DNA from: Owenia fusiformis
Lineage: Eukaryota; Annelida; Polychaeta; Sabellida; Oweniidae
Reading direction: 5' to 3'
Assembly: GCA_903813345.2 (NCBI GenBank)
Contig: CAIIXF020000001.1
Coordinates: 42,315,366-42,379,365 of the forward strand
DNA: 64,000 nt
Shown: positions 5,426 through 62,155 of the stretch, one piece after another
How the letters are laid out: every line of letters begins with the position of its first letter
Position numbering within the stretch: the first letter of the stretch is position 1
Program-made: the position numbers and the translations under genes
Notes under the pieces: generated by a model
Database searches by the model: none
What the model was told of the DNA's origin: nothing
Seen by the model: the letters and a program-made list of their open reading frames with translations, nothing else

Positions 5426-5911
5426 ACTTAATTCAATATTTTTTTCTCTGAAACCAGTTATCCAAAAATATGAAAAAATTAGACAGTAACAATGCAATAT
5501 AATAGTCATCTTTCCAATTGTACCAATTTTATTTGATAATAATTATAATTTACCTTTTTTTTATATATATTTCTTTTAGTAGACCCATCTAACACAGTAT
5601 TTTCTTTTCGCTACCAATTCTTTGGGAATTTTTTAAACAATTTTCTGAAGCTGGTTCGAACAAACTAAGATACACATATGTTTTGTAATTATCTCAATAT
5701 CCTCGTTAATTAAAAACAGTTAGGCTGAATTGAGATAAGTATCGAAAAGAATGAAATGAACATAAAATACCCCCCAAAAACTGGAAATGCACCTTTTCCA
5801 GGGGTTTTCCATGAACAATTACTTTTGATCAACGTGTTGATAGATAGATGGAACTGGTGCTTTAGTTGATATGGGTGACATATGATTGAGACGCTAATGA
5901 ATGTATGAGGA
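5426..5911. other. Unassigned AT-rich DNA
   Basis: No repeat end, gene or structured motif is evident between the repeat family to the left and the foldback arm to the right. Confidence 0.35.
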
Positions 5912-6169
5912 TCAGCATTTTAGTGTGCGCCAAAACTCCAGAAAATCCCATTAACTGATGTTGAGGTAGGTTACTATGATTTGACCCATAGTCAATATAG
6001 ATTGGTTCATTGACTATTCATTTTTACTTGTCTGCACTCAAAGAAGTGACACGAAAGGGCTAAACGGCTTGCCCCAAGGTGCAACCGTCAAAAAGATGAG
6101 TTTGACAAAAATCTTTTTTTCAAATAATAGCAGCGAGTATATGAAATAGGAGGCATTTGATATTGATAT

Positions 6170-7078
6170 GACGTGTCGCAAAAAGGTGGCGCATTTGTTT
6201 TTTAAGGTTATCGCGTGGATGTAACTTTGATTCCCCGGAATATAAGATAATATTCTAATTAAAGTTATATATCATTTTAAAGCTGTTTCGATGAAGATTT
6301 TAGATAAACTACACTCCGTTCACATTTTTGCGCGTTCGTTTTTAAAAAAGAGTTTTTTACCAAAACATCTGGCAAATATCCCATGTTGACACGTTACATT
6401 TTGATTTATTTTTCGTCTTTAAACGCTCATAACTCAAACAATATATGACTATTATACTTATTTTTCATCTTGATAAAGGTAGATGGAAGTTTTATTTCAA
6501 AGGATGAATTTTAGTAAGCGTCCCATATTGTGACGTCATAGAGTCTGAAAAATAGAATCTGTTGACAGCGACCTTTTTTGCTCATTTTTTGGTACCTTCA
6601 ACTTTTCAGGTGTACATTAAACCAAAAATACGAGATCAATTTTTAATAAATCATACATGATTATTTTGCTCCTAAACTCTAGTTTATTAATAAATAGTTG
6701 ATTTTGTTCACAAAAGTATGTGTTTTCTGTTGTATGTGGAAAAGTGGAGGACGAAAGGTTTTCGAAATTCATTAAAATAAGGCTAATTTACGCCATTCGC
6801 CTATTTTCAAGCACAGCAACACGTATATTTATTTCACCTAAAGTATCAATTGATTCGTGTTTTATGATGCTCCTAGCCCATTAACAATATATATATGATA
6901 TCAGAGTTATTCGTCTAAAATGTTTTGAGATATAGATGTAAATGTGGAGGACGAAAGGATTTTCATGTGTGTACATTTTTCTCAAAAACGTCACATTCTA
7001 TCATGTTAAAAGCGAGGATCCTCTGGATTACGCCACAAAATGTGTAACAATGCGTGCGCGAGCTTTTTGCGACACGTC
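6170..7078 (+). mobile_element. 909-bp TIR element with TAT duplication, copy 1
   Basis: The termini are GACGTGTCGCAAAAAGG (from 6170) and CTTTTTGCGACACGTC (to 7078). TAT is present on both sides (6167-6169 and 7079-7081). The matching region of the opposite foldback arm (near 9505-9530) shows the empty site with a single TAT, fixing both boundaries and the 3-bp duplication. The interior is AT-rich and non-coding, and includes conserved phrases such as 'caacttttcaggtgtaca'. A second, inverted full-length copy is at 34193-35068. A 3-bp duplication occurs in PIF/Harbinger and a few other superfamilies; the family is not assigned. Confidence 0.8.
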
Positions 7079-7339
7079 TATGTATATAGTCCATTTGGGT
7101 GTGGTCATTTTTATTAAAAACAATAATATTGAAGAATTATACATTTCTGACCTTAAAATGCCATTTTAATACAAAAGTCACGGTTGCTATTAATTATATT
7201 CCTATTTTACTCCTGTTTTCTATATATTACACTTACCATTATATTCATTTTTGGCAAAGTAATTAATAATGAGGCTCACACAAGGATCCACTTTATTTAC
7301 AACTTTTTCATATTTAGTGATGTTTTGAAAAATTACTAC

Positions 7340-8340
7340 GCAATGACTTTGACCCCAAGTCGCCTAGTAATGGTTCACCAAGCATCACATCATCTCCCGA
7401 ATGCCTTGAAACACCAATACCTAGATATTGACCTCGACCTTGAGATGATCTTGAATTGAACCATTAAATGATGACTGACCTCATGTCACCTTATCATGAG
7501 TCGCCAAGGGCCACTTCACGACAGCAGCCCATGTGGCCTTAAAACGCCAAACACTAATATATTGAAATTTGACCTTAGATTGACCTTGACCTCAGGTCAC
7601 GTTTCAATGGAGTCAAGTGCAGCAGCCACTCCAAAACGCCAAATATTTAGATATTGATCTCTGGCCTTGACCTATAAAAATGACACTGATCTCAGGTCAC
7701 TTTATCATTGGTGATCAAATGTCAGTGTAGCCACAAACAAGCCAACTACCTAGATATTGACCTTTGACCTTACTATAATTTTGAACCATAGATATTGACT
7801 TTGACCTCATGTCACCTTAGCTTGAGTTGGCAAGGGTTATAGCAGCCCCCAGGGCTTCAAAATGCCAAATACAGATATTATGACCTTGTAGGAATGACCT
7901 TGACCTCAGAACACATATCAATGGGTCCTCACATGAAGCAGCATCCCCAAAATGCCAAATATTCAGATACTGACCTCTGACCGTGAGATGACCTTGACCC
8001 ATAAACAGTGACATTGACCGTAGGTCACTTTATCTTTGGTGATCAAATGTTACTGAAGACCCACAGTTGTCAACTATCTATGACCTAGATATTTGACCGT
8101 TGACCTTGAAACTACCTTGAAATCACCTTATCATTGGTCGCCAAAGGTCACAATTGTTCTCACGTCAACTTGCTAGATATTGACCCTTGAACTTGTAATT
8201 TCCTTGATCCATTCAGACCTTGACTTCAGGTCACCTAATCATTGGTCGTGGAGGGTCAAATCAACGACCAGGTGTCTTAAAAAGCCAACTACCTAAATAT
8301 TGACATTGTACCTTGAAATGACCTTGACTTTTGTAGTATA
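7340..8340. repeat. AGGTCA-rich tandem array with three-monomer higher-order unit
   Basis: A degenerate monomer of about 105 bp recurs eight to nine times. Its core reads TGACCTTGACCTCAGGTCAC, then 'cttatcattggt', then 'aaaatgccaaat' and 'agatattgacct'. Core positions near 7484, 7593, 7693, 7808, 7904, 8013, 8113 and 8223 are spaced 109, 100, 115, 96, 109, 100 and 110. Monomers three apart resemble each other best, for example 'ggtgatcaaatgt' at 7693 and 8013. The higher-order period is therefore about 320 bp. Non-coding. Confidence 0.75.
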
Positions 8341-8954
8341 CACTTTTTATGAACAAAAATGGAACATTCAAAGTTGAAAACTGACCGTTTGAAAATTGCT
8401 GCTAATGTTTCACAACGAAGGTATCTGTATTGTAAAAGTAATGTTCGAATTGAATAAACTCAAAGAAATATACTTCAATTATATAATTTTCTATCAGACT
8501 AAGTAAAATTGTAACTGTTCTAAATGTAAATGTTGCAATGAAAGCTCACATATATCTTGTTGCATATCAGTCTAGTGCAGCTGCTACAGGTATCACTCTG
8601 ACAAACATCGGTGAACAAATCAAACTTGATGTGATGCAAATCGGTATCTTTTAATTTGGCGTCCACGCAGAATGTTGGACAAAATGGCTAACTGTTAGAT
8701 AAACCATGAATAATAGAATTGTCAAAAGTTGCATTTATAAAATCAATTCCTGCCTCATCACTGTTACACCCATTACTACAAGATGTTGTCTCGACTAGGT
8801 CACTGTCTGCAAGCTAAAAAAGTATCAAAATCACTGCCTACTTTATCACAATAAACGTTAGTTACAAATAATTTCAGTAAAATGCAAATAGAAGGCCCAT
8901 TTGATATTAATATGGAAAGATAGTCAACTTTGGTGCGGTAATTTTACTGCAACA
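8341..8954. other. Non-coding interior of foldback element
   Basis: AT-rich spacer between the tandem array and the inner arm copy. No frame, tRNA-like motif or inner repeat was recognised. Confidence 0.35.
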
Positions 8955-9765
8955 ACTACATAATATATGTACATGTATAATGCCTTTTTATTCAAAAGTC
9001 AATCATTGTATTCCTATTTAACATATTAAAGGATTTTTATATATCTGAATAATCGTTATATTCATTTTTGGCAAAGTAAATAATCATAGGGCTCACACAA
9101 GGATCAACTTTATTGAAGACTTTTTGTACTGGTATATGCCCTGCAGCTCTAAGAGCAAGAGCAATGAATTGCGATTTTTAGTTGAAACAATGAAACAAAC
9201 ACAATACCACCATTACATTTAATATTTAACAAACACAATTGTGTTAAACTTAGTAAACTTTGAAATCATCACTAAATATGAAAAAGTTGTAAATAAAGTG
9301 GATCCTTGTGTGACCCCTATAATTATTTACTTATTGCCAAAACCTAACATAATGGTAATTGAAACATTTAGAAAACACTGAATAAGTAAAATAGGAATAT
9401 TATGATTAGCAACAGTGACTTTTGGATTAAAATGGCATTTCAAGGTCAGCAATATATAATTCTTCACCATTATTGTTTTAAATAAAAAGATCACACCCAA
9501 ATAGACTATCATACATATCAATATCAAATATGGCTCTTATTTCATATACTCACTGCTATTATTTGAAAAACATGATTTTTTCAAACTCATATTTTTGACG
9601 GTTGCACCTTGGGGTGTCACCTTTTTAACTACAGACAAGTGAAAATGAATAGTCAATGAACCAATCTATAATGACTATGGGCCACTTCTTAGTAATCTAC
9701 CTCAACATCGATTTAGACTAACTAAGCCACTTTGGAAGTGATTTGGCGCATACTATTTAGCACAT

Positions 9766-12700
9766 TTGATTGTGAAACACTTTTCATATTCTATACGAAT
9801 TTTTCATATGTAATAAAGTATTTATAGGGGCTCAACTCACAAAAGTGACATTCACAGTAAGCATATCGTACAAATAATGTCTGGTCTGGTTCCAATAAAA
9901 TGTTAATAGAAATCAAAATGAAATCTCAAATGTTCTGGATTGAAGTTCTAGTCAATTGGAATATTGGGACATCACAACTACCTGTGTCTCAACAGTTTAG
10001 TTATCGCTACCCTAGTCGATATTATGGCCGGTGATCTTGTCAAGGTTGAACTAAATTATATCCCGAAGTTGACCATCGGTTATGGTATCCATATTTGCTA
10101 AATCAGGCCAACACACCTGGCGCTAGTGACGACTTAATCAGCTTTATCCTAACCCTAAAATGGAACACGTTTACACGCTCATGTGACGATTTTCAAAAAT
10201 TTTCAAAAATTTATCTTTATCATCAATTTTCGACTTATTGTAATTGAGGAAAAAATTGAGAAAATTTGAGGGTATTGGAAATAAAGTCAAATTACGTTCC
10301 CATCAATAGTATTTTCATCGCAGGTTTAGTAAATAAAAATTCAAAGGTAAAGGGGCTTTAACACTTAGTTCAATGGGGGAGCTAAGGTTGCCAAACTTAT
10401 GGAGGGGAGTGTATACGTATTCTAAATAACTTATATCGAAAGCTCTCTTAGTACTAACGACATTTTGACGTTTTCGTTGTTGGAAATTATGAGTTGCGAT
10501 CCTGGGAGCCAATCCTCATTGCTTTCTTAAGGAAGAACAAGAACAGCAGTTCGGCCATCTGATTGCATCCGAATTTATGCCAGAATAAAGCTATTCAATA
10601 TATGAATTACATCTCCCCCAGCGGAAATCTATCGGCGGCTACTTCATGCAACAGAGGCTCTCTGCTTGACTAGATTTGCCAATTTCATAATTAAAGATTA
10701 CATCCATGGGGCCGGGGGCTCAGGTGCCAAGGAGTTGAATTTGATAAATTTACCACGCTAAGGTGCAGTGGTAGTTAACAGGAAATGACAAAACAAAAAA
10801 ATGACCAAACTATGCTGGATTTTCAAAAATTTTGGAACCAAGATAACAGAGTTCTGTTTTGGCTACGGACCTGCTATATATCCTAACTTCAGGAGCTCGC
10901 AAACGCATTATTTGCACGAATCGAACGTCATATTCTCGTTATATCGGAAAGTTCCTATTTCTGTTCGTTGGCGATGCTATTATGAAGCAGCCAAATGGCA
11001 GAAGAAAGTTAGTTTTTGCATTGTAGCAGTCTATTACTTTCCTGGTTTTGTTTTTACCTCTATGTATGTAGATGAGGATTAACTAATTAAAGTCAAAAAT
11101 ATTTTGCTACCTACAGTATGTGACCTCATCGTGACCCCACTCAGGTGTCAAAACTTTATGTATAATAAAAAAATCCTTTCCATGTCAATATTTTCTAGAT
11201 ATGTTAAAATTCAAAAATAAACCAATGCTGATTTTCTGAACAGCTCAAAAAAAGAATATATTATGTTTTAAATATTATTGTACCATGGGTTTCTATGAGA
11301 ACTAAACTTTTGAAATTCATTTTTTTCTCTGGACCATTTGCATGTTTGGACGAGTTCATTTCATTAGTTTTAAAGGAATTCTAAAAATATATCACACTTT
11401 GATAACTTTGGGTAAGACTACAATATAAGCGTGGCTTAAGCCTAAACTTTATACGAGGGCTTCAATTTTTTTCTTCATTTTACAAGAATATGTATGAGAT
11501 TAAGACCCCATATCAATTTCTTGGCATTAATCACTTTGTATACCTTTGCCGATGTGGTGAAAATTGAAACAAATTATTTGCTAATGGGACCTTTATAAAC
11601 AAAATTGCAACGGATATCATATTGATGAAAGATCTAGTACGGGACAATATATCTCTTGCTGATTTATTTTGTTCATTAGCGTTGGTACATATTAATGGTT
11701 GTTTAAACACACATTACGACCCTCAAGGCTCAAGGAAAAATAAGGAATTAAGCAATCATTAGTTTTACAGCCTTAGTTATACCTCTCCTCATTAAAACGG
11801 AACGGGGAAAAGCAATCATGCATATATTTCTGACCACAATGGACACGAGTTATACAAACCGTGACTTGGAAACACTAAGGAAACATCATATGAATGCTTA
11901 ATGAAATTAATTTGGGATATATTGAATCAAATGGTCAGTTATTAAATTTTAAAAATGTTGATTTTGGATTTCCTCAAATAACGTTGCAACTTGCAGTGGT
12001 TGTCACATGTCTAGAGTCTAGACCAAGGATCAAAATGGTTCCTTTACTTAATATTAGAGTATGAAATCAAGTCTTTTCCAAGCCTTACTTCTTTACAGAT
12101 CGTTCGCAGATCGCTAAGTGCTTCGGTACTGACAACATCCCAACATTTATCGTTGAATTCCACAGGGATCTACTCTTCCACCCATCTCATAATATACTCG
12201 TACATCAACGCCTTACTTACATCACAGGTTTAACAGTTCATCACATATTCGTATGATAATTTTATTTCCTCATTTTCCCTTTCCTGATGATAGTATCGAT
12301 ATTTGAATGGACGTGCCAATATTCTAAATATGCCACTCGCCTTACTAACTTGCACATCGAGATAGTCAACTTTTGAAACTATATACGGGATTTTTGTTAA
12401 GGTTGAGGTCAAAAGGTTTTACCTCTTCATAATCCATTTTATAGAATGAAAATGAACTTTGCAACTAGCAAAAGAGCAGTATGTTCAGAAAATCCGATCC
12501 CATTTGTGAAACTGTTCAACTTATCACAGCTTCAATCGGAGCAGGAGCTGGCAAGAGTCATATATCCATAAATTGAAGACAAATTGGACTGGGCGCCAGG
12601 GTTTGCAATGCTCAACATGCAACATTCCTAATTTTAAATTTTGATTAATACTGCGTTTTAAGGTCTCTATTGGCCATTATTATGTTAAATTAGTATTCAA

Positions 12701-17953: not shown

Positions 17954-19312
17954 TATCGCACTTTGAAGAGCAAACTGGCCACCATGCAATTTACCCAGCA
18001 TGGCCAAAACCTAATCAAACCTTGACACTAGTCTGCTCTTGCATCTGTAAACAATTCAAGTTGACAAGGTTAGCGGTTTTCCTGCAATTTTGATGACAAG
18101 AATTTATTTGTAGTCTTGAACTTTGGGAAAATTTAGATAACATTGTTTGTGACCTAATTTGATGACCTTCGACCTTGAAAATTTCACTTTTTCAGACCTC
18201 AGTAGGTGTTTTGTAATTAAGCTGACCTAAATTTAAATCCAAAATATCAATTTAGAAAATCAACTTTTTGACCTTTTCAATTTGGTCAATTTGGAGCAAT
18301 TTGAAAAATTCAAAATGGCCGCCAAATTGAAAAATTCAAAATGGCCACCATGTAATTCAGCCAGCATACCCAAAACCTCATCAGATCTTGGCAATAGTCT
18401 GCTCTTGCATCTGTAAAAATTTCAAGTTGAACGGATAAGTGGTTTTCCTGGAATTTTGATGACAAGATTTGTTGAAAAATTCAAAATGGCCACCACGTAG
18501 TTTACCCAGCATGGCCTAAACCTAATCAGATCTTGGCACTAGTCTGCTATTGCATGTGTAAAAATTTCAAGTTGAACAGGTTAGCAGTTTTCTTGGAATT
18601 TTGATGACAAGAATTGATTTGTTGTCTCAATCTTTGAGAAACTTGGATAACATCATTTGTGACCTAGTTTAATTACCTTGACATTCGACCTTGAAAATTT
18701 CACTTTTTCAGACCTCAGTAGGTCTTTTGTAATTAAGCTGACCTAAATTTAAATCCAAAATATCAATTTAGAAAATCAACTTTTTGACCTTTTCAAGGTC
18801 ACTGAAGGTGAATGAAAGGTCAAATTTGAAATCTAAGGTCAGATTTGAACTTCTGAGAACTTGCTGATGTTTTAAAAAAAGAATTTGGTCAATTTGGAGC
18901 AAGTCGAAAAATTCAAAATGGCCGCCAAATTGAAAAATTCACAATGGCCAACATGTAATTCAGCCAGCATACCCAATACCTAATCAGATCTTGGCAATAG
19001 TCTGCTCTTGCATCTGTAAAAATTTCAAGTTGAACGGATAAGTGGTTTTCCTGGAATTTTGATGACAAGATTTGTTGAAAAATTCAAAATGGCTGCCACG
19101 TAGTTTACCCAGCATGCCCTTAACCTAATCAGATCTTGGTACTAGTCTGCTCTTGCATCTGTAAAAATTTCAAGTTGAACAGGTAAGCAGTTATCCTGGA
19201 AATTTGATGACAAGATTTGGTTTATGTGCCGCCCGCACGCCCGCCCGCCCGCCCTGCCGCCCGCCCAACAGCACAAGACGACGACAATATAGCACTTTTT
19301 CAAAGTGCGATA
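17954..19312. mobile_element. 1.36-kb TIR element with internal repeats and GCCC-rich edge
   Basis: TATCGCACTTTGAA (17954-17967) and its perfect complement (19299-19312) bound the unit. Inside, a block starting 'cccagcatggccaaaacctaatcag' recurs near 17992, 18359, 18505, 18961 and 19106. It alternates between two subtypes (A-B-A-B-A), showing duplication of a ~510-600-bp segment. Blocks of 'ttcaaaatggccgccaaattg' and 'agacctcagtaggt' recur between them. A GCCC-rich stretch (19228-19266) sits just inside the right end. Frames over this stretch are artefacts of the repeat. Confidence 0.65.
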
Positions 19313-20349: not shown

Positions 20350-21542
20350 CGCCCAATTTCACTTCTGTCCGTTTTTTTCTAAGATTTTAGAAAGAGTTAT
20401 GGCCAACAGAATTGTTGATTTTTTGGAAAAATTAAAAATATTTTGTGAACAACAGTTTGGTTTTAGAAAAAAACAGATCAACTTATATGGCACTTTTGAA
20501 GTTTCTGGAATCACTTCGTTCATCACTTATTGATAAAAAATTTAATATTGCAATATTTATAGACTTATCGAAAGCCTTTGACACTGTTAACCATGAGATT
20601 CTTTTGGAAAAATTACATTTCTATGGAATAAGGGGTATCGCTCATAACTGGTTTGCAAGTTACTTAACAAATAGAACTCAATCGACGGAGTATGACAATT
20701 GTGTTTCACATCCTATCCGAATATCATGTGGTGTACCACAAGGGTCGATTCTAGGACCAATATTATTTCTCATTTATATTAATGATATTGTGAAAACAAC
20801 TTCTTTTCCAAAGCTTATAATTTTTGCTGACGATACAAATTTACTTGCTTCTGGTATAAATTTAAACGAATTAGTTAATCTTATTAACAATGATCTAGAC
20901 ATTTTAGATGACTGGTTAAGGGTGAACAAACTCTCGCTCAATATTGACAAAACTAAATTCATGTTTTTCTCACATCGCAAACTCACTCAAAATGAATCAC
21001 ACCTTTTGAAAATAAAAATACGGAACAGTAGTATTGAACGAATTAACAAAACTAACTTTCTTGGTGTAATAATCGATGATAACCTATCATGGGAAAGTCA
21101 TATCAAACATGTCACTGTGAAAATCTCACAAACACTGGGTGTTTTATTTAAGGTACACAACCGATTAAACTTTGAATCTTTAAAATCAATTTATTATTCG
21201 CTTATATATAGTCACTTAAATTATTGTATTCTTGCATGGGGAACTGCTACCAAACGATTAATGGATATGATTTTAAAGCTACAGAAACAGTTCCTGAGAC
21301 TAATATCACACAGTGCCAAAGATACACCTTCAGCACCTCTCTTTAAGAAATATAGATTTATTGATATGTTTGAAGTTTATAAACTCAACGCTGCCTTGTT
21401 TGTATTTAATTGTATCAAAAGACCCAAGGAATTCCCTATCAACATGTTCAATGATTATTTTATAGCAAATAGCAGAGTCCATAAAAGAGATACAAGAAAC
21501 AAATTTGATCTCAGGTCCATTAAATCGTACAATAGAAAATCA
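20350..21542 (+). pseudogene. LINE reverse transcriptase (FADD box)
   Basis: A 408-codon open frame (20445-21671) carries the core; its first codon is GTG and is not a native start. Motifs with residue positions in that frame: IFIDLSKAFDTVNH (37-50, RT motif A), GVPQGSILGPILF (96-108, motif B), IIFADDTNLL (125-134, catalytic FADD), then LSLNIDKTKFM and NFLGVIIDDNLSWESHI (thumb region). Upstream, NRPISLLSV and CEQQFGFRK are present but shifted by single-base gains in a poly-T (about 20376) and a poly-A (about 20466) run. Two small indels plus the insertion make it non-functional. The last ~44 codons of the open frame belong to the insert. Confidence 0.85.
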
Positions 21543-22047
21543 TCCGCTGACAGGTCACCTGACTTGGCTAACTTGTCCACCAGGTCAACCAACATTTTGT
21601 CTCTTGCGAGTTCTGATGTTGTAATAAGTTTGACAGGTTTGCTATCACTCTCTGATCCGAGTGTTGCCTGATCCTGAGTCTTGATGACAGGTTTGTGTAG
21701 CGATCCAATTGCGAATTCTAAAGCCCTCTCAAGTCCCAATCTGCCTAATTTTAGAGCAGCAATGTCACTGATTTGCATGGCTAACAAGGCATTTAAAGTG
21801 TCAAAACCTTCCTTCATCAATGAATCTATAGTATCATTGTGTAGCTTATTATCCACTGTCCATTGTTGGAAATTAAATTCTGACATGTTGACTATTTACA
21901 ATGACTATTTTTGAGACAAAACAAAGAAACAAGAAAACTTTCCAAAACTTTGCATGCTGCTATTGCGCAATGGAACTGGCCCTCTATAGTGTATAAGCAA
22001 AACTAAACTAAATTAAAGTGCTGCCCTCTTTATGACCTTTCCTCTCT
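21543..22047 (-). mobile_element. 505-bp insert flanked by AAATCA
   Basis: AAATCA occurs at 21537-21542 and again at 22048-22053. Deleting one copy plus the 505 bp between them keeps the LINE in the same frame on both sides, supporting a true insertion with a 6-bp duplication. I see no clear terminal inverted repeat and no poly(A) end. The insert carries an antisense ORF that runs open through its own left edge, so it looks like a fragment of a longer source. Confidence 0.6.
21545..21886 (-). CDS. SAM-like domain ORF fragment in LINE insert
   Basis: The ATG at 21886-21884 opens a frame of about 114 codons to the insert edge, after which it reads antisense LINE. The N-terminus (MSEFNFQQWTVDNKLHNDTI, then a segment with SDIAALKLGRLGLERALEFA) has the helix pattern and the 'L-x-x-L-G-x-x-x-x-A-L' ending of a SAM/pointed-like helical bundle. 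Similar SAM-like N-termini occur in ORFs of invertebrate mobile elements. The rest is polar (TQDQATLGSESDSKPVKL, LVDLVDKLAKSGDLSADDF). Base composition is less AT-rich than the host LINE. Function is not established; incomplete at its C-terminus. Confidence 0.45.
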
Positions 22048-27035: not shown

Positions 27036-27829
27036 TAACCCCCCTATCACACCAAACTAGTTCTTACCCGTTCTTGCCAGTCCTACGAAAAAGTCGTAAA
27101 ACGGGCTCAATCTGGTTGTGGTCGGGAAATATGTCTAAAATAATTAGCTAATTCGTTCATAAACAGTCTTCAATACGTCCATCTCATTCGCAGTTCGTTC
27201 AGGTCGCACCAGGTCGGTGTGCAACGTCGTATAACGCGTCCCCAAGTCTAGAAGGTCATCATGACCTGATTACAGAACGGTATGGTCGCATCGAATTTTG
27301 AATCGATTCAAAATTCTAAAATCACCTTCCAGTCTGAGAACGTTTATGAAGTTCGTAAAGAGACCTTAGAAAGTTGCAGCTACGTTCATTCCGTTCGCAC
27401 ACAGTTTAAAACCAGTTTTGAAGAACGCAGTGGCAAAATTTTTGGTGTGATAGCTATAATTTTGCTAACTCGTTCATAAGCAGTCTTAAATACGTTCTTA
27501 AACAGTTCAAACCCGTTTGCAATTAGTTCTACCTCGTTCTCAATACGTCCTCAGACAGTCCAACTCGTTGTTAAAACGTCCCTAGTAGGAATGAAGTACG
27601 ACGGTTCCGTTCGTAGTACGTCCAGCTCGTCGTTAGTACGTTGTCACTCGTTCTAATTCTAAAACTTATCGACCACTAGAACATGTTCTAAGTTATAAGG
27701 GACCTACCCGTTCGAGTACGTTCGATGAAGTTAGTAAATAGGTTCTAAATACGTCCAGTTCGTTCGTACACAGTTGAAGCCCATTTTCGAGAACGTAGTG
27801 AAAACTAGTTTGGTGTGATAGTAGGGTTA
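27036..27829 (+). mobile_element. ~795-bp TIR element (TATCACACCAAAC), copy 1
   Basis: The ends are TAACCCCCCTATCACACC, 'aaactagttct' and the complement ...AACTAGTTTGGTGTGATAG, 'tagggtta'. A second, inverted copy is at 32634-33435. The interior is a patchwork of short phrases rich in ACGT, such as 'ttcaatacgtcc', 'cagttcgttc', 'cgttcgtagtacgtcc' and 'agaacatgttct', in both orientations. The 24-bp perfect palindrome at 27293-27316 (half-site GAATTTTGAATC) and AGGTCATCATGACCT at 27253-27267 lie inside. Open frames here lack domains. Confidence 0.75.
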
Positions 27830-28299
27830 AGGGCAATGTACCCTTTTTCTTCACAGAGTGTATTACCAATTGTCCAATTTATATGTCAGTGTATATCTTT
27901 ATGTCATTCTCCAAATCAACTGCATCTGTCAAAAATTGATTAATTATGTCAGTGTTAATCTGTGGGAGAGAAAGTTGGTGCCACAAATGCGATGACATAA
28001 CTAAACGGGGAATGGAGATGTTTATGCTGTTACGTTTGTGCCACAATTTTGTGTGAAAATAATCTCTCTTGGGACTAGTTAGTTTACAGTTGCTGCTTTT
28101 TATTTGTTATAGAGACATTACTTTATATGACTGCACGGATGTAATCATATCTATATATTGAATGGGAAGCACAGTAGTGAAATAATCGGTCGAAGTGACA
28201 AGGAAATCATGGTTGCACTATATATATGCAATTGATTGCCCATACAGACACATGGATGACATGGATAACTAGACATGTAAATTGAACAAGTTCAATTTA
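27830..28299. other. Unassigned spacer
   Basis: No gene recognised. ATTGAACAAGTTCAAT (28281-28296) is a small inverted repeat just outside the next element. Confidence 0.3.
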
Positions 28300-31432: not shown

Positions 31433-32633
31433 TAAAGAAAGACATTAATTAAAAACTGTGTGGCAGTAAAATGATTTTATAGCTCCTTTCTTCTTCTATT
31501 TAATAGTTCTATTTTCATTGGTTATGGGGGGGGGGGGGCACGCATCGCACTTATGAAAGATTCCTCTCACAAGACTCAGCTATTAATGCATCTGCATCAG
31601 ATGTACATCTGCAATCAGATATACATGATCTGATCTATATTCGATAACAAATATTGATACTCATGCTCATGATCTTGTCAGAAACAATAAGTGATTTTTT
31701 TCTACTTCATGGTAAGAACGATACATTTTTTGCAAGGTAATATTCTGTATTTACATTAAAGTCACTCATGCAGCTGTCACTCATGCAGCTGTCTTTTTTT
31801 CAATTAAATTACAGGTTTATCAAATCGAAGTATATGTCACTCTGGAAGAGATAAATAGAATTGATCAAGAAAGTAAATATTCAGATTGTTAAAAATTGAC
31901 TGCAATCTCACCTATTATAATGTGTATCATGGTAAAAGGTCTCAAAATTGAAATTTCGAGACTAATTAATGATAATCCTAAAATTCACGAAGCCTACCCC
32001 TATACATTTTAGGGGTGGGGATAAAAATGGCCAAAAGTGAAAAAATAATAGAGGAAAGGGCACAATTGATTTTGCACCCAGGAAGGTTGTCAGGTCATAT
32101 ATGGAGTTCCACGATTTGTTCCCTTTTTTAGGTTTTTTGCAATGGCGAGAATAATATTTGAGGTCATGTATTTGCCATAAATTATAAAAACGAGGTATTT
32201 GTTACACTTCTAATATGATAAAGATACAAGAAAAACATCTATTTGCATATTTTAATTATCATGTAATCAAGGCAAAACGTATATGCTCTATGTAAAAACA
32301 TGAATATTCAGTGGAATTGGCCAGTTGACTATGGTGAAAACAAGATCGCCATGATGTTTGGAAGCATGTACCTGGACATGACTTCTTTGCGCCCTATAGG
32401 AGATCCATTGAAAAATTCATGGTGGACCAATGTCCTGACACAGTAGGGACTCCTGGCACTTCAGTCCTTCATCAGAACCACACATCCAACATGCACATGA
32501 AGGGCACATGATATGGAATTTTACCTCTTGATTTTGAATCTTGGACAGATACCCAGCAGATTGAAGTAACCTATATTCAAATTCTGATGCATGGTACTCC
32601 AACTACAACTTTATTGTGTAACACAATTAATGT
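31433..32633. other. Unassigned, with G13 run and 15-bp tandem duplication
   Basis: Contains thirteen consecutive G (31526-31538) and two direct copies of GTCACTCATGCAGCT (31761-31790). No gene recognised. Confidence 0.4.
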
Positions 32634-33435
32634 TAACCCTACTATCACACCAAACGAGTTCTCACTACGTTCTCGAAAATGGGCTTCAACTGTGTACCAA
32701 CGGACTGGACGTACTTAGAACCGTTTGGGATCTTTTTACAAACTTCATCGATCGTACTCGAACGGGTAGGTCCTCTAGAACTTAGAACATGCTCAAAATG
32801 TTCTCTTGGTCGTCACGTTCTACAATTAGAACGAGTGACAACCTACTAACAACGAGCTGGACGTACTACGAACGGAACCGTCGTACTTCAATCCTACTAG
32901 GGACGTTTTTACAACGAGTTGAACTGTCCGAGGACGTATCGAGAACGAAGTAGAACTAATTGCAAACGGGTTAAAACTGATTAAGAACGTATTTATCACC
33001 GAGTTAGCAAAGATATAGCTATCACACCAAGCAAGTTGCCACTGCGTTTTTCAAAACTGGTTTTAAACTGTGTGCGAACGGAATGAACGTAGCTACAACG
33101 TTTTAGGGTCTGTTTACGAACTTCATGGACTTTCCTGGACGGGGAATGTGATTTAGAATTTTGAATCGATTCAAATTCGATGGCGACCATACCGTTCTGT
33201 AATCAGGTTATGATGACCTTCTAGACTAAGTGACGCGTTATACGACGTTGCACACCGACGTGGTGCGACCTGAACGAACTGCGAATGAGATGGACGTATT
33301 GAATACTGTTTATGAACGAAGTAGCTAATTATTTTAGACATATTTCCCGACCACAGCCAGATTGAGCCCGTTTTACGACGTTTTCGCAGGACTGGCAAGA
33401 ACAGGTAAGAACTAGTTTGGTGTGATAGGGGGGTA
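32634..33435 (-). mobile_element. ~800-bp TIR element (TATCACACCAAAC), copy 2 inverted
   Basis: Inverted relative to 27036-27829 and similar through most of its length, including the block 'acaccgacgtggtgcgacc', the GAATTTTGAATCGATTC palindrome (near 33156) and 'ccacagccagattgagccc'. The ends are TAACCCTACTATCACACC and ...GGTGTGATAGGGGGGTA. No transposase in either copy. Confidence 0.75.
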
Positions 33436-34105: not shown

Positions 34106-34192
34106 ATTAAATTTCTGCACATACATGACACAATGAAAAAACGTTACACAAAAATGATGATTAAAACAGTTGATTGTTCTGGCAGTTAGTAT

Positions 34193-35068
34193 GACGTGTC
34201 GCAAAAAGGTCGCGCACGCATTGTTACACATTTTCGCTTTTTAACACCACAGAATGTGACGTTTTTTGAGAAAAATGTACACATATGGAAATCCTTTCGT
34301 CCTCCACATTTGCCTCTATATCTCAAAATATTTAAAGCGAATAACTCTGATATCGTATATGTATTAACAATGGGATAGGAGCATCATAAAACACGAATCA
34401 ATTGATATTTTAGGTGAAATAAATATACGTGTTGCTATGCTTGAAAATATGCGAATGGCGTAAATTAGCCTTATTTTAATGAACTTTAAAAATCTTTCGT
34501 CTTCCACTTTTCCACATACAACAGAAAACACATACTTTTGCGAACAAAATCAACTATTTATTAATAAACTAGAGTTTAGGAGCAAAATAATCATGTATGA
34601 TTTATTAAAAATTGATCTCGTATTTTTTGTTTAATGTACACCTGAAAAGTTGAAGGTAACAAAAATGAGCAAAAAAGGTCGCTGTCAACAGATTCTATTT
34701 TTCAAACTCTATGACGTCACAATATGGGACGCTTACTAAAATTCATCCTTTAAAATAAAACTTCCATCTACCTTTATCAAGACGAAAAATAAGTATATTA
34801 GTCATATATTGTTTGAGTTATGAGCGTTTAAAGACGAAAAATAATTCAAAATGTAACGTGTCAACTTGCCAGATGTTTTGGTAAAAAACTCTTTTTAAAA
34901 GAACACGCAAGAATCGTGAACGGATCGTAGTTGATCAAAAAACTTCATCGAAGCAGCTTTAAAATGATATATAACTTTAATTAGAATATTATCTTATAAT
35001 CCGGGGAATTAATGTTACATTCACGCGATACCCTTAAAAACAAATGCGCCACCTTTTTGCGACACGTC
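34193..35068 (-). mobile_element. 876-bp TIR element with TAT duplication, copy 2
   Basis: Same family as 6170-7078, inverted. The ends are GACGTGTCGCAAAAAGG (from 34193) and CTTTTTGCGACACGTC (to 35068), with TAT at 34190-34192 and 35069-35071. Similar to copy 1 throughout, so both descend from one non-autonomous source. Confidence 0.8.
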
Positions 35069-35862
35069 TATAGCTACACAACTCAATATACAAATCTGGC
35101 TAGCCTTTGGCAAGGGAAAGTCCTATAGATACCTATCCAGTCCATAAAATTACCCATGTAATGACTCAGAAAGTCACATTTCCCAATATTTCATGCTATG
35201 ACTGGGTGGGACACCACCTCAGGGTTTAATGGAAAATGTTAGACATCAGAAGCCTTATTCATAAAGCCAACGTAAATATTTCCATTTACGTCCACGTTAC
35301 TCAATTGTACGTTGGACGTAAAAACGTCTCTCCGTCGTATTCATAAACATATGCGGAAATTGAAGATCTACGTTTAACTTTCCGCAAGGACCTATGCAAT
35401 GAAAATAATATACTATATACTCCCATATCATGTCCCAATTCTGTGACCACCTGCATGTACGTATTTAAATATGGTTGCATCGTCAACGTACGCGTAATTT
35501 GACACGTTTCTCGTTGTTATGGTTGCGTCTTGATGCTTATACTCCTATATAAAAGCTTACTGTATTCCATTCGAGTTCATTTTCACCACATTCCCAAGCA
35601 AAATCATGTCTGAGAAATAAAGACAAGTAAACTCTCCATCTTCGGAAAATGAAAATTGAACTTAAACAAGAGATATATGCCTGCTATAGTCGTTGGTTGG
35701 CTGGCCCCGACCATATCCTCTGTCACATATTTAAAGGTACTCGTGGAAAAAGAGCGCAGTGCTAGAGTAACAAAAAGAAATGAACCCCAATTGATTTACA
35801 AAAACTACTACTGTTTTTGGCAATACCTGAATTATTGGTGTGAATACTACAATGTACATGTA

Positions 35863-44924: not shown

Positions 44925-46959
44925 CACTGTATGTACAGTGATCGCCTACTATTACAAGTGCGTGATCACAGACTCGACAAGATGCGCAAAATTCGAAATG
45001 TCGGAGGAAAGGTATGTTTGTTCATCTTCTCTTTACCACCTTAATGTCATTTTACCTACAGATGGTATTCCATATGCTGTATAAGAGACTCGGGATTCAT
45101 TTGGTAACAGGATTCAGTGATTGGTTCAACCGAAATACCTGAATTGAGTTGATAAATAAAGCAAAATCTAAAACCCGCCGAACGAAAATGTATATTTCAC
45201 CAAATTTTCTGCTTTTAGATTACCAAAACCACAAAAACCAACATGCCTGTGGTTAATATACATAATACTTAACATTACATGCATATCAGTCGTTCCAACT
45301 CCCCTTCAGTATCGAGTAAGAAGGATGTTCATATGAAAACAATTTATGATCAGCCAAGTGTGTGATTTTACCATGATTGTATATTCCAATGATATGTTCT
45401 TTGCATTTCAGAGTGGTTGGGTTTACATGATTTTACCGTCCTTCATTACGAACTCCTAAATTTCAAATCATTATAAACCACCTTGTAGAACATCATGAAG
45501 AAGAAGAGATGAAGATGAGAAAGATTACTGAAAATAGAGGCAAATTTAGAATGATAACAAGAAATTTCTCTGGAAAATACCAAATGAAGTGAAATCAATA
45601 AATAAACACAGTGGTGAATTTATGACAATTTCAGTGATTGACAATAACTGAATGCAATCATCCAAAATCTCTGATTCAACTGCTACACACTTTGTAGAGT
45701 TTCTCTAAACACGCCCACTGGGCGTTTATTTTGCATTCGTTTACATACAATTCTAAAATTCTCAAGCTAATCACCTACAGACCTTAGTTGAAAATTGATC
45801 AATAAATCTACTGAATATTGAACTTTAGAGGAGCTTTCGCTTATATCTGTCAGTTATATGACCCAAGTTAGCCACCTCGTGGTGAACCTGAGAACTGACT
45901 ATTGGCATCTACTGAAGGTTATTACGTCATTACATTTTTAATATAAATTATTGGTACCTTGCTGCAAAATAATGATTTAACTCCCCAATGAAGTAGAAAG
46001 TGTACAATTCAGATTTTATATTTTATACGTTTATTATGAGACCCCATGTCCAAAACAGGCGCAAACATGACAATGGGTGATACAGTGACATGCATTTTCA
46101 TTCATAATTTATTCAATTCTTGCATTACAATTCGACAATCGTCTTGGATGCCAAGGTGTAAAGTTCTCATACCTTGGAATCAGAGGGTAAAATAAATGGA
46201 CTGAAATGGGACTTTAAAAAACTGTTCCACTTATAATGTGTTACGCTTCAAGAGGTGTTTCACTTAGCAGGTTCTACTGTGCAGTATACATATCATATGA
46301 TGGTAATGTATTCAAACCTAGGGAGAAAAACAAAATGTACGCACACACAATGACCATTTAATTGACTGAATCAGTGAACAGTGATGTACATGTTTATTTT
46401 GGACATACATTTTGCGATAAACCCCATTTTTCTTCTCTTGAAAAGCATATAGCTATTGGCGTATGGTTTGCTGAAACTCACGCTATAGGCTGATCCATTC
46501 GTTTCTGTGTTAAAATATTTATTCCATGTTATTTAAGAGGAAACGTGAATTTCATCATGGTTAAATGGAAGCCCAAGACCCTACCTAAGTATAAAAAATC
46601 AAAGAGAGTAAAAATGTTCTATTGTTTTTGATATTTTTGAGCTTTTTAAATAAAATAACACATATTATATCGCATTTATATCTTTACATCGTAAAATCAA
46701 TAACACTTAGCCGAAAGGGATTTTTTAGTACAATAAAGCATTGAATATATATATACGAAAAATGGTCAAACTGATATATATTTCTCAAATCATATGGGTG
46801 TTCTTGTGCTTACAAAACCTAATTGAATCACCGATAGCCTGTAATATAAACACAAATAAACCTTTCAAAATAACCGTTACAAAATATTTGAATTTTGCGC
46901 ATCTTGTCGAGTCTTTGATCACGCACTTGTAATAGTAGGCGATCACTGTACATACAGTG
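44925..46959. mobile_element. 2.03-kb element with 70-bp TIRs and 5-bp ATATA duplication
   Basis: The left end 44925-44994 and the right end 46890-46959 are reverse complements over 70 bp with one or two mismatches. Each begins CACTGTATGTACAGTG, which is itself a hairpin, then 'atcgcctactattacaagtg' and 'cgtgatca'. ATATA flanks both sides (44920-44924, 46960-46964). The interior contains no transposase-like frame. The CAC start and 5-bp duplication resemble Transib-type transposons, but this is inference from ends only. Confidence 0.75.
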
Positions 46960-61017: not shown

Positions 61018-62155
61018 CATAGCATAACATAGCATAGCATAGCATAGCACAGCACAGCACAGCAGAGCACGGAAAGCATAGCATAGCATAGCAGCAAAGC
61101 ATAGCATAGCATTGTACTGCACTGAATAGCATAGCATAGCATTGAATTGTATTGTATTGCACTGCATTGTATTGTATTTTATTGCACTGCATTGTATTGT
61201 ATTTCACTGCATTGTATTTTATTGTATTATATTGCACTGCATTGTATTATATTGCACAGCATTGTATTGTACTGCAATGCGCTGCATTGCACTGCATTGT
61301 ATTGTATTGCACTGTATTGCATTTCAATGAATTACACTGCATTGTCTTGTATTGCAATACATTGCACTACATTGTATTGCACTGCAATATATTGCATTTC
61401 ACTGCATTGCATTGTATTGCACTGCAATATATTGCATTTCACTGCATTGTATTGCATTGTACTGCAACATATTGTATTGTACTGCATTTTATTGTACTGC
61501 AGTACGCTGCATTGTATTGTATTATACTGCATTGTAATGTATTGCACTGTTTTGTATTGCATTGTATTGAATTACACTGCATTGTATTGTATTGCACTGC
61601 ATCACATTGTATTGTACTGTATTTTATTTCACTGCATTGTATTGTATTGCACAGCACCACATTGTATTGCATTGTATTGTACTGCAGTACGCTGCATTGT
61701 ATTATACTGCATTGTATTGTATTGCACTGCACCACATTGTATCGCACTGCATTTTATAACACTGCATTATATTGTATTGTACTACATTGTGTTGCACTGC
61801 AATGTATTGTATTGCATTGTATTGCAATGTACTACATTGTGTTGCACTGCACTACATTGTTTTGCATTGTATTGCATTGCACTGCATAGTAATGCATTAT
61901 ATTGCACTATATTGTATTGTATTATATTGCACTACATTGTATTGTATCATATTACATTGTATTGTATTGCATCATATTGTACTGCTTTGTATTGCATCAT
62001 ATTACACTACATTGTATTGCATCATATTGCACTGCAGTATATTGCATCATATTGGTCTGCATTGTATTGTATCATATTGCACTGCATTGTATTGCATCAT
62101 ATTGCACTGCATTGTGTTGCATCATATTGCACTGCATTGTATTGCATCATATTCC
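61018..62155 (+). repeat. 1.1-kb pentanucleotide array (ATWGY/AYTGY)
   Basis: The array begins with AGCAT and AGCAC units (61018-61135) and passes to ATTGT, ATTGC, ACTGC and ATTAT units that keep a 5-bp register for over 1 kb. Because five is not a multiple of three and the units lack stop words in most phases, several frames stay open (the longest spans 61147-62190); their Tyr-Cys-Ile-rich products are artefacts. Confidence 0.95.

Follow-up and report, generated by a model that had tools for sequence, protein, structure and literature searches.

MITEs and other non-autonomous TIR DNA transposons carry TIRs, are bordered by a target duplication, have no coding capacity and occur in more than one copy. 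Most MITEs are shorter than 876–909 bp. Further traits are a high genomic copy number for MITE-like elements, a Zator/TP36-type transposase for the autonomous partner of Zator elements, and an Academ transposase and nuclease for that of AcademX elements. The target preference of PIF/Harbinger elements is TWA, i.e. TAA/TTA, and the termini of EnSpm/CACTA elements are CACTN. According to one report, Repbase uses the first 11 bases of the termini, together with the length of the duplication, to class non-autonomous elements (PMC4455052). In the papers cited here, 3-bp duplications are mentioned for Zator (PMC10045372), for PIF/Harbinger and Tourist-like MITEs (PMC2213677) and, as the TA-containing TAA, for most Fot elements of pogo/Fot (PMC7386202); AcademX is given duplications of 3 or 4 bp (PMC10045372). 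Other reports place Zator in bivalves, report Academ as amplified there (both PMC10294476) and pair Zator with the bacterial ISAzo13 (PMC5718144).

Here, we analyzed one stretch of 64 kb from the annelid Owenia fusiformis (contig CAIIXF020000001.1), referred to below as the window. It contains two copies of an element that has TIRs, a target duplication, no coding capacity and more than one copy in common with MITEs, whereas its length of 876–909 bp exceeds that of most of them. Zator and AcademX are both compatible with the element, by duplication length only: the 3-bp duplication is common to Zator and agrees with that of AcademX, and the element has no transposase or other coding sequence to compare. 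The occurrence of both groups in bivalves would bear on the element only if its host were a bivalve. A 3-bp TA-containing duplication is also shared with pogo/Fot, but it is TAT/ATA in the element and TAA in Fot. Two candidates were rejected. The element shares the 3-bp length of the duplication with PIF/Harbinger but has TAT/ATA, not TWA, in 2/2 copies, and its termini are not the CACTN of EnSpm/CACTA. The best reading of the pair is two copies of one non-autonomous MITE-like DNA transposon family, a known kind of element.

Results

Copy 1 is located on the forward strand at positions 6170–7078 (909 bp). Its TIRs, detected as an inverted-repeat pair at 6170–6193 (plus strand) and 7055–7078 (minus strand), start with GACGTGTCGCAAAAAG; the 24-nt arms are complementary at 22 of 24 positions (92%), and the termini read GACGT...ACGTC. 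The TIRs lie at the exact ends of copy 1, and the same holds for copy 2. TAT was found on both sides of copy 1, at 6167–6169 and 7079–7081. The 17-mer end motif GACGTGTCGCAAAAAGG was searched with at most 3 mismatches and occurred four times in the window, each time at an end of one of the two copies; the mean expectation was 0.11, and 0/100 shuffles reached four. When TIRs of at least 13 bp with flanking duplications of at least 3 bp were sought across the window, seven candidates emerged, both copies included; the same settings returned 2, 1 and 1 candidates in three shuffles that kept the dinucleotide content only partly.

In a six-frame translation, the longest stop-free stretch was 60 codons for copy 1 and 63 codons for copy 2, and a transposase gene is absent from both. 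The window has 109 stop-to-stop frames of at least 70 codons; Pfam analysis (E up to 0.01) covered ten of them, none inside the element. One frame had a match above the cut-off, one had a match below it (2-oxogl_dehyd_N, 17.3 versus a cut-off of 27 bits), and eight had no match. Rfam analysis of the whole window at gathering thresholds gave 0 matches. No autonomous partner was found within the 64-kb window. Copy 1 contains a decayed internal direct duplication on the plus strand (6661–6763 and 6862–6964, spacing of about 200 bp), whose score was 48.5 versus a maximum of 38 over 200 shuffles. Inside the TIRs, palindromy of the element was not above shuffles, nor was the direct-orientation likeness between its two halves. 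As single-stranded DNA, the element folds better than its 20 shuffles (z = −3.47); this fold is presumed to be driven mainly by the TIRs and was not counted as evidence of function.

Copy 2 is located at 34193–35068 (876 bp) on the minus strand, in the opposite orientation, with TAT on either side at 34190–34192 and 35069–35071. The two copies differ by 48 substitutions in 873 aligned bases (94.5% alike) and by 8 gap runs. Their flanks are unrelated except for the TAT, which was present in 2/2 copies. At this base composition, the two flanking triplets would agree by chance with a probability of about 0.021 per insertion. These two copies in 64 kb are the entire sample examined, and they suggested a target preference for TAT/ATA.

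Copy 1 interrupts the left arm of an inverted repeat. BLAST analysis placed this arm on the plus strand at 5957–6169, left of the insert, and at 7079–7338, right of it; the right arm was located by BLAST and alignment on the minus strand at 9251–9709. Compared with the reverse-complemented right arm, 7079–7338 was 84.7% identical to 9517–9251, and 5957–6169 was 81.0% identical to 9709–9515. On the right arm, the two matches share 9515–9517 and no other base, and these 3 bases are the duplication. After joining, the flanks of copy 1 aligned through the insertion point to 9251–9709, and no insert was present there. The empty site at 9506–9525 on the minus strand is GATATTGATATGTATGATAG, with a single TAT at the junction, whereas the filled site in the left arm reads GATATTGATAT, the element and TATGTATATAG, with two TAT. 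An earlier note on this DNA had proposed a nested TIR element of 909 bp, a 3-bp TAT duplication, an empty site preserved in the opposite arm and a copy with the same TAT flanks at 34193–35068. The TIR pair and the flank alignment bore out its limits, and the other three proposals agreed with the sites described above.

A third arm copy, partial and more divergent, was found in direct orientation on the plus strand at 8862–9125 by BLAST (8976–9125) and three-way alignment. Its site at 8903–8923 reads GATATTAATATGGAAAGATAG, without an insert. The stretch around this site (8862–8946), analyzed alone, had a score of 49, whereas the best of 1000 dinucleotide-preserving shuffles scored 33. In the 337 columns of the three-way alignment, the left and right arms agreed in 293, and the third copy agreed with the left arm in 223 and with the right arm in 223. 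The third copy is farther from either arm than the arms are from each other and therefore serves as the outgroup. A homologous empty site was present for copy 1 in 2/2 other arm copies; none was seen for copy 2. With the outgroup copy, the empty state would most simply be ancestral, one gain in the left arm being simpler than two precise losses, and we infer by parsimony that the filled site is derived.

Significant homology of the arms spans 5957–7338 and 9251–9709. The arm alignment that had been suggested therefore held in this range, but its outer limits, 5912 and 9765, were unsupported on their own. An outward comparison of 5600–5956 with the reverse complement of 9710–10069 had a score of 63.9, versus a 95% shuffle level of 76.3; beyond the significant limits, the joined-flank alignment still contains a short match, TGCGCCAAA. 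No outer termini or duplication bounding the arms were found. Among exact direct repeats of 6–11 bases between 5840–5959 and 9700–9829, only CATATG (5879/9805) and TGATTG (5883/9767) were present, and neither is placed at matching arm ends. Given the lack of outer termini and duplication and the presence of the third copy inside the loop, the two arms need not belong to a single foldback element, as the earlier note had it. With this third copy, they may equally well be members of a repeat family that occurs in both orientations; for an old element, the ends may conceivably have been lost. At 7409–8328, the loop also contains degenerate repeats in which TGACCTTGACCTCAGGTCA-like sequence is abundant and which match one another at 67–71%.

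Relatives of the element were searched for in sequence collections and in the literature. The TIR pattern and an internal 21-mer pattern had 0 exact loci in viral contigs and 0 in prokaryote contigs, the arm pattern had 0 exact loci in viral contigs, and blastn of the element gave no match in plasmid records; these viral, prokaryote and plasmid collections are not built for eukaryote genomes, so absence from them says little. A full-text literature search for the 10-mer GACGTGTCGC returned no transposon-titled paper, as judged by titles. Searches on 3-bp duplications, MITEs, Zator, Academ, foldback elements and nested insertions gave no title tied to the element among the matches listed.

The rest of the window has a low coding density, with 5 ORFs of at least 150 aa in 64 kb, and many dispersed repeats. 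Retroelement sequence is present too: a reverse transcriptase frame at 20436–21668 matched RVT_1 above the Pfam cut-off (E = 4.9e-26). Coding density, repeats and this frame together suggest eukaryotic DNA, for which empty scans of viral, prokaryote and plasmid records are to be expected. A further TIR element at 44925–46959 has 83-bp inverted repeats starting with CACTGTATGTACAGTG and a 5-bp ATATA duplication; its CAC termini and 5-bp duplication presumably recall Transib. Two inverted copies of about 0.8 kb, 88% alike, at 27038–27830 and 32633–33434, have ends like AACCCTACTATCACACCAAAC and lie beside TTAA or GTAA; the pair may be a candidate TTAA-targeting non-autonomous transposon. At 17954–19312, 145-bp tandem repeats (18327–18616 and 18930–19219) lie within a pair of 17-bp inverted repeats flanked by AAA. 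Degenerate tandem repeats of the ATTGT type, with units of 5 bp and 25 bp, make up about 1 kb at 61139–62147, and the long frames there are probably spurious.

Discussion

Copy 1 is very probably a non-autonomous, MITE-like cut-and-paste DNA transposon that inserted at TAT within a pre-existing inverted-repeat arm. We observed TIRs, 3-bp duplications, the lack of coding capacity, two copies and two homologous empty sites. These features point to a cut-and-paste route and a trans-acting transposase. In this model, a transposase encoded elsewhere would recognize the 24-bp TIRs, excise the element and join its ends to a target opened by cuts 3 bp apart; gap repair would then duplicate TAT.

The length of the duplication bears on the most serious alternative, a Tc1/mariner-type element whose duplication is the 2-bp TA and for which the third base is coincidental. 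TA lies inside TAT and is contained in both duplications, as this reading needs. However, the T-A-T of the target is the same for both copies, and their orientations are opposite. Read in the direction of the element, the flanks are TAT/TAT for copy 1 and ATA/ATA for copy 2. A 2-bp TA or AT model would thus have to place the additional base to the left of one copy but to the right of the other, and to attribute its agreement to chance both times; a 3-bp duplication calls for no further assumption. Because of the opposite orientations relative to the target, a duplication of 3 bp appears to fit the sequence better than one of 2 bp, and we consider a Tc1/mariner-type element unlikely. We regard it as very unlikely that the pair belongs to a lineage of DNA transposons outside every described superfamily, one with GACGT termini and a 3-bp target that would be specific for TAT.

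The MITE-like reading also places the insertion after the origin of the arms. The earlier note had regarded the empty right arm as proof of this order. Such wording is too strong, because one empty arm alone may also result from precise excision: if all arm copies were once filled, precise excision that retained one copy of the duplication would leave right-arm and third-copy sites of identical appearance. That history would require two independent precise losses, including one from the copy that has diverged most, and it also conflicts with arms that are more diverged than the element copies, which makes it most improbable. The order itself gained support from other evidence, namely the empty third copy and the lower divergence of the element copies, and these sequence comparisons suggest that the insertion was later than the arms. 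The arms differ by 49 substitutions in 448 bases versus 48 in 873 for the element copies (Fisher p = 5e-4), a comparison that pits different sequences against each other and that, should copy 2 have arisen from copy 1, sets no bound on the age of the insertion. The outgroup argument is independent of it. The 94.5% likeness over aligned bases could also be explained if copy 1 were a segment transferred from 34193–35068 by recombination or gene conversion, with no transposon involved; yet the likeness does not extend past the TIRs, and the flanks of the two copies are unrelated, with a separate duplication around each copy, which leaves this reading next to no probability.

The kind of element described here is ordinary and belongs to everyday transposon biology. 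Paralogous repeat copies within one window provided its empty sites, and the ends and the duplication were fixed without a second genome. Together, the TIR and TAT form an exact query for the family and for its autonomous partner.
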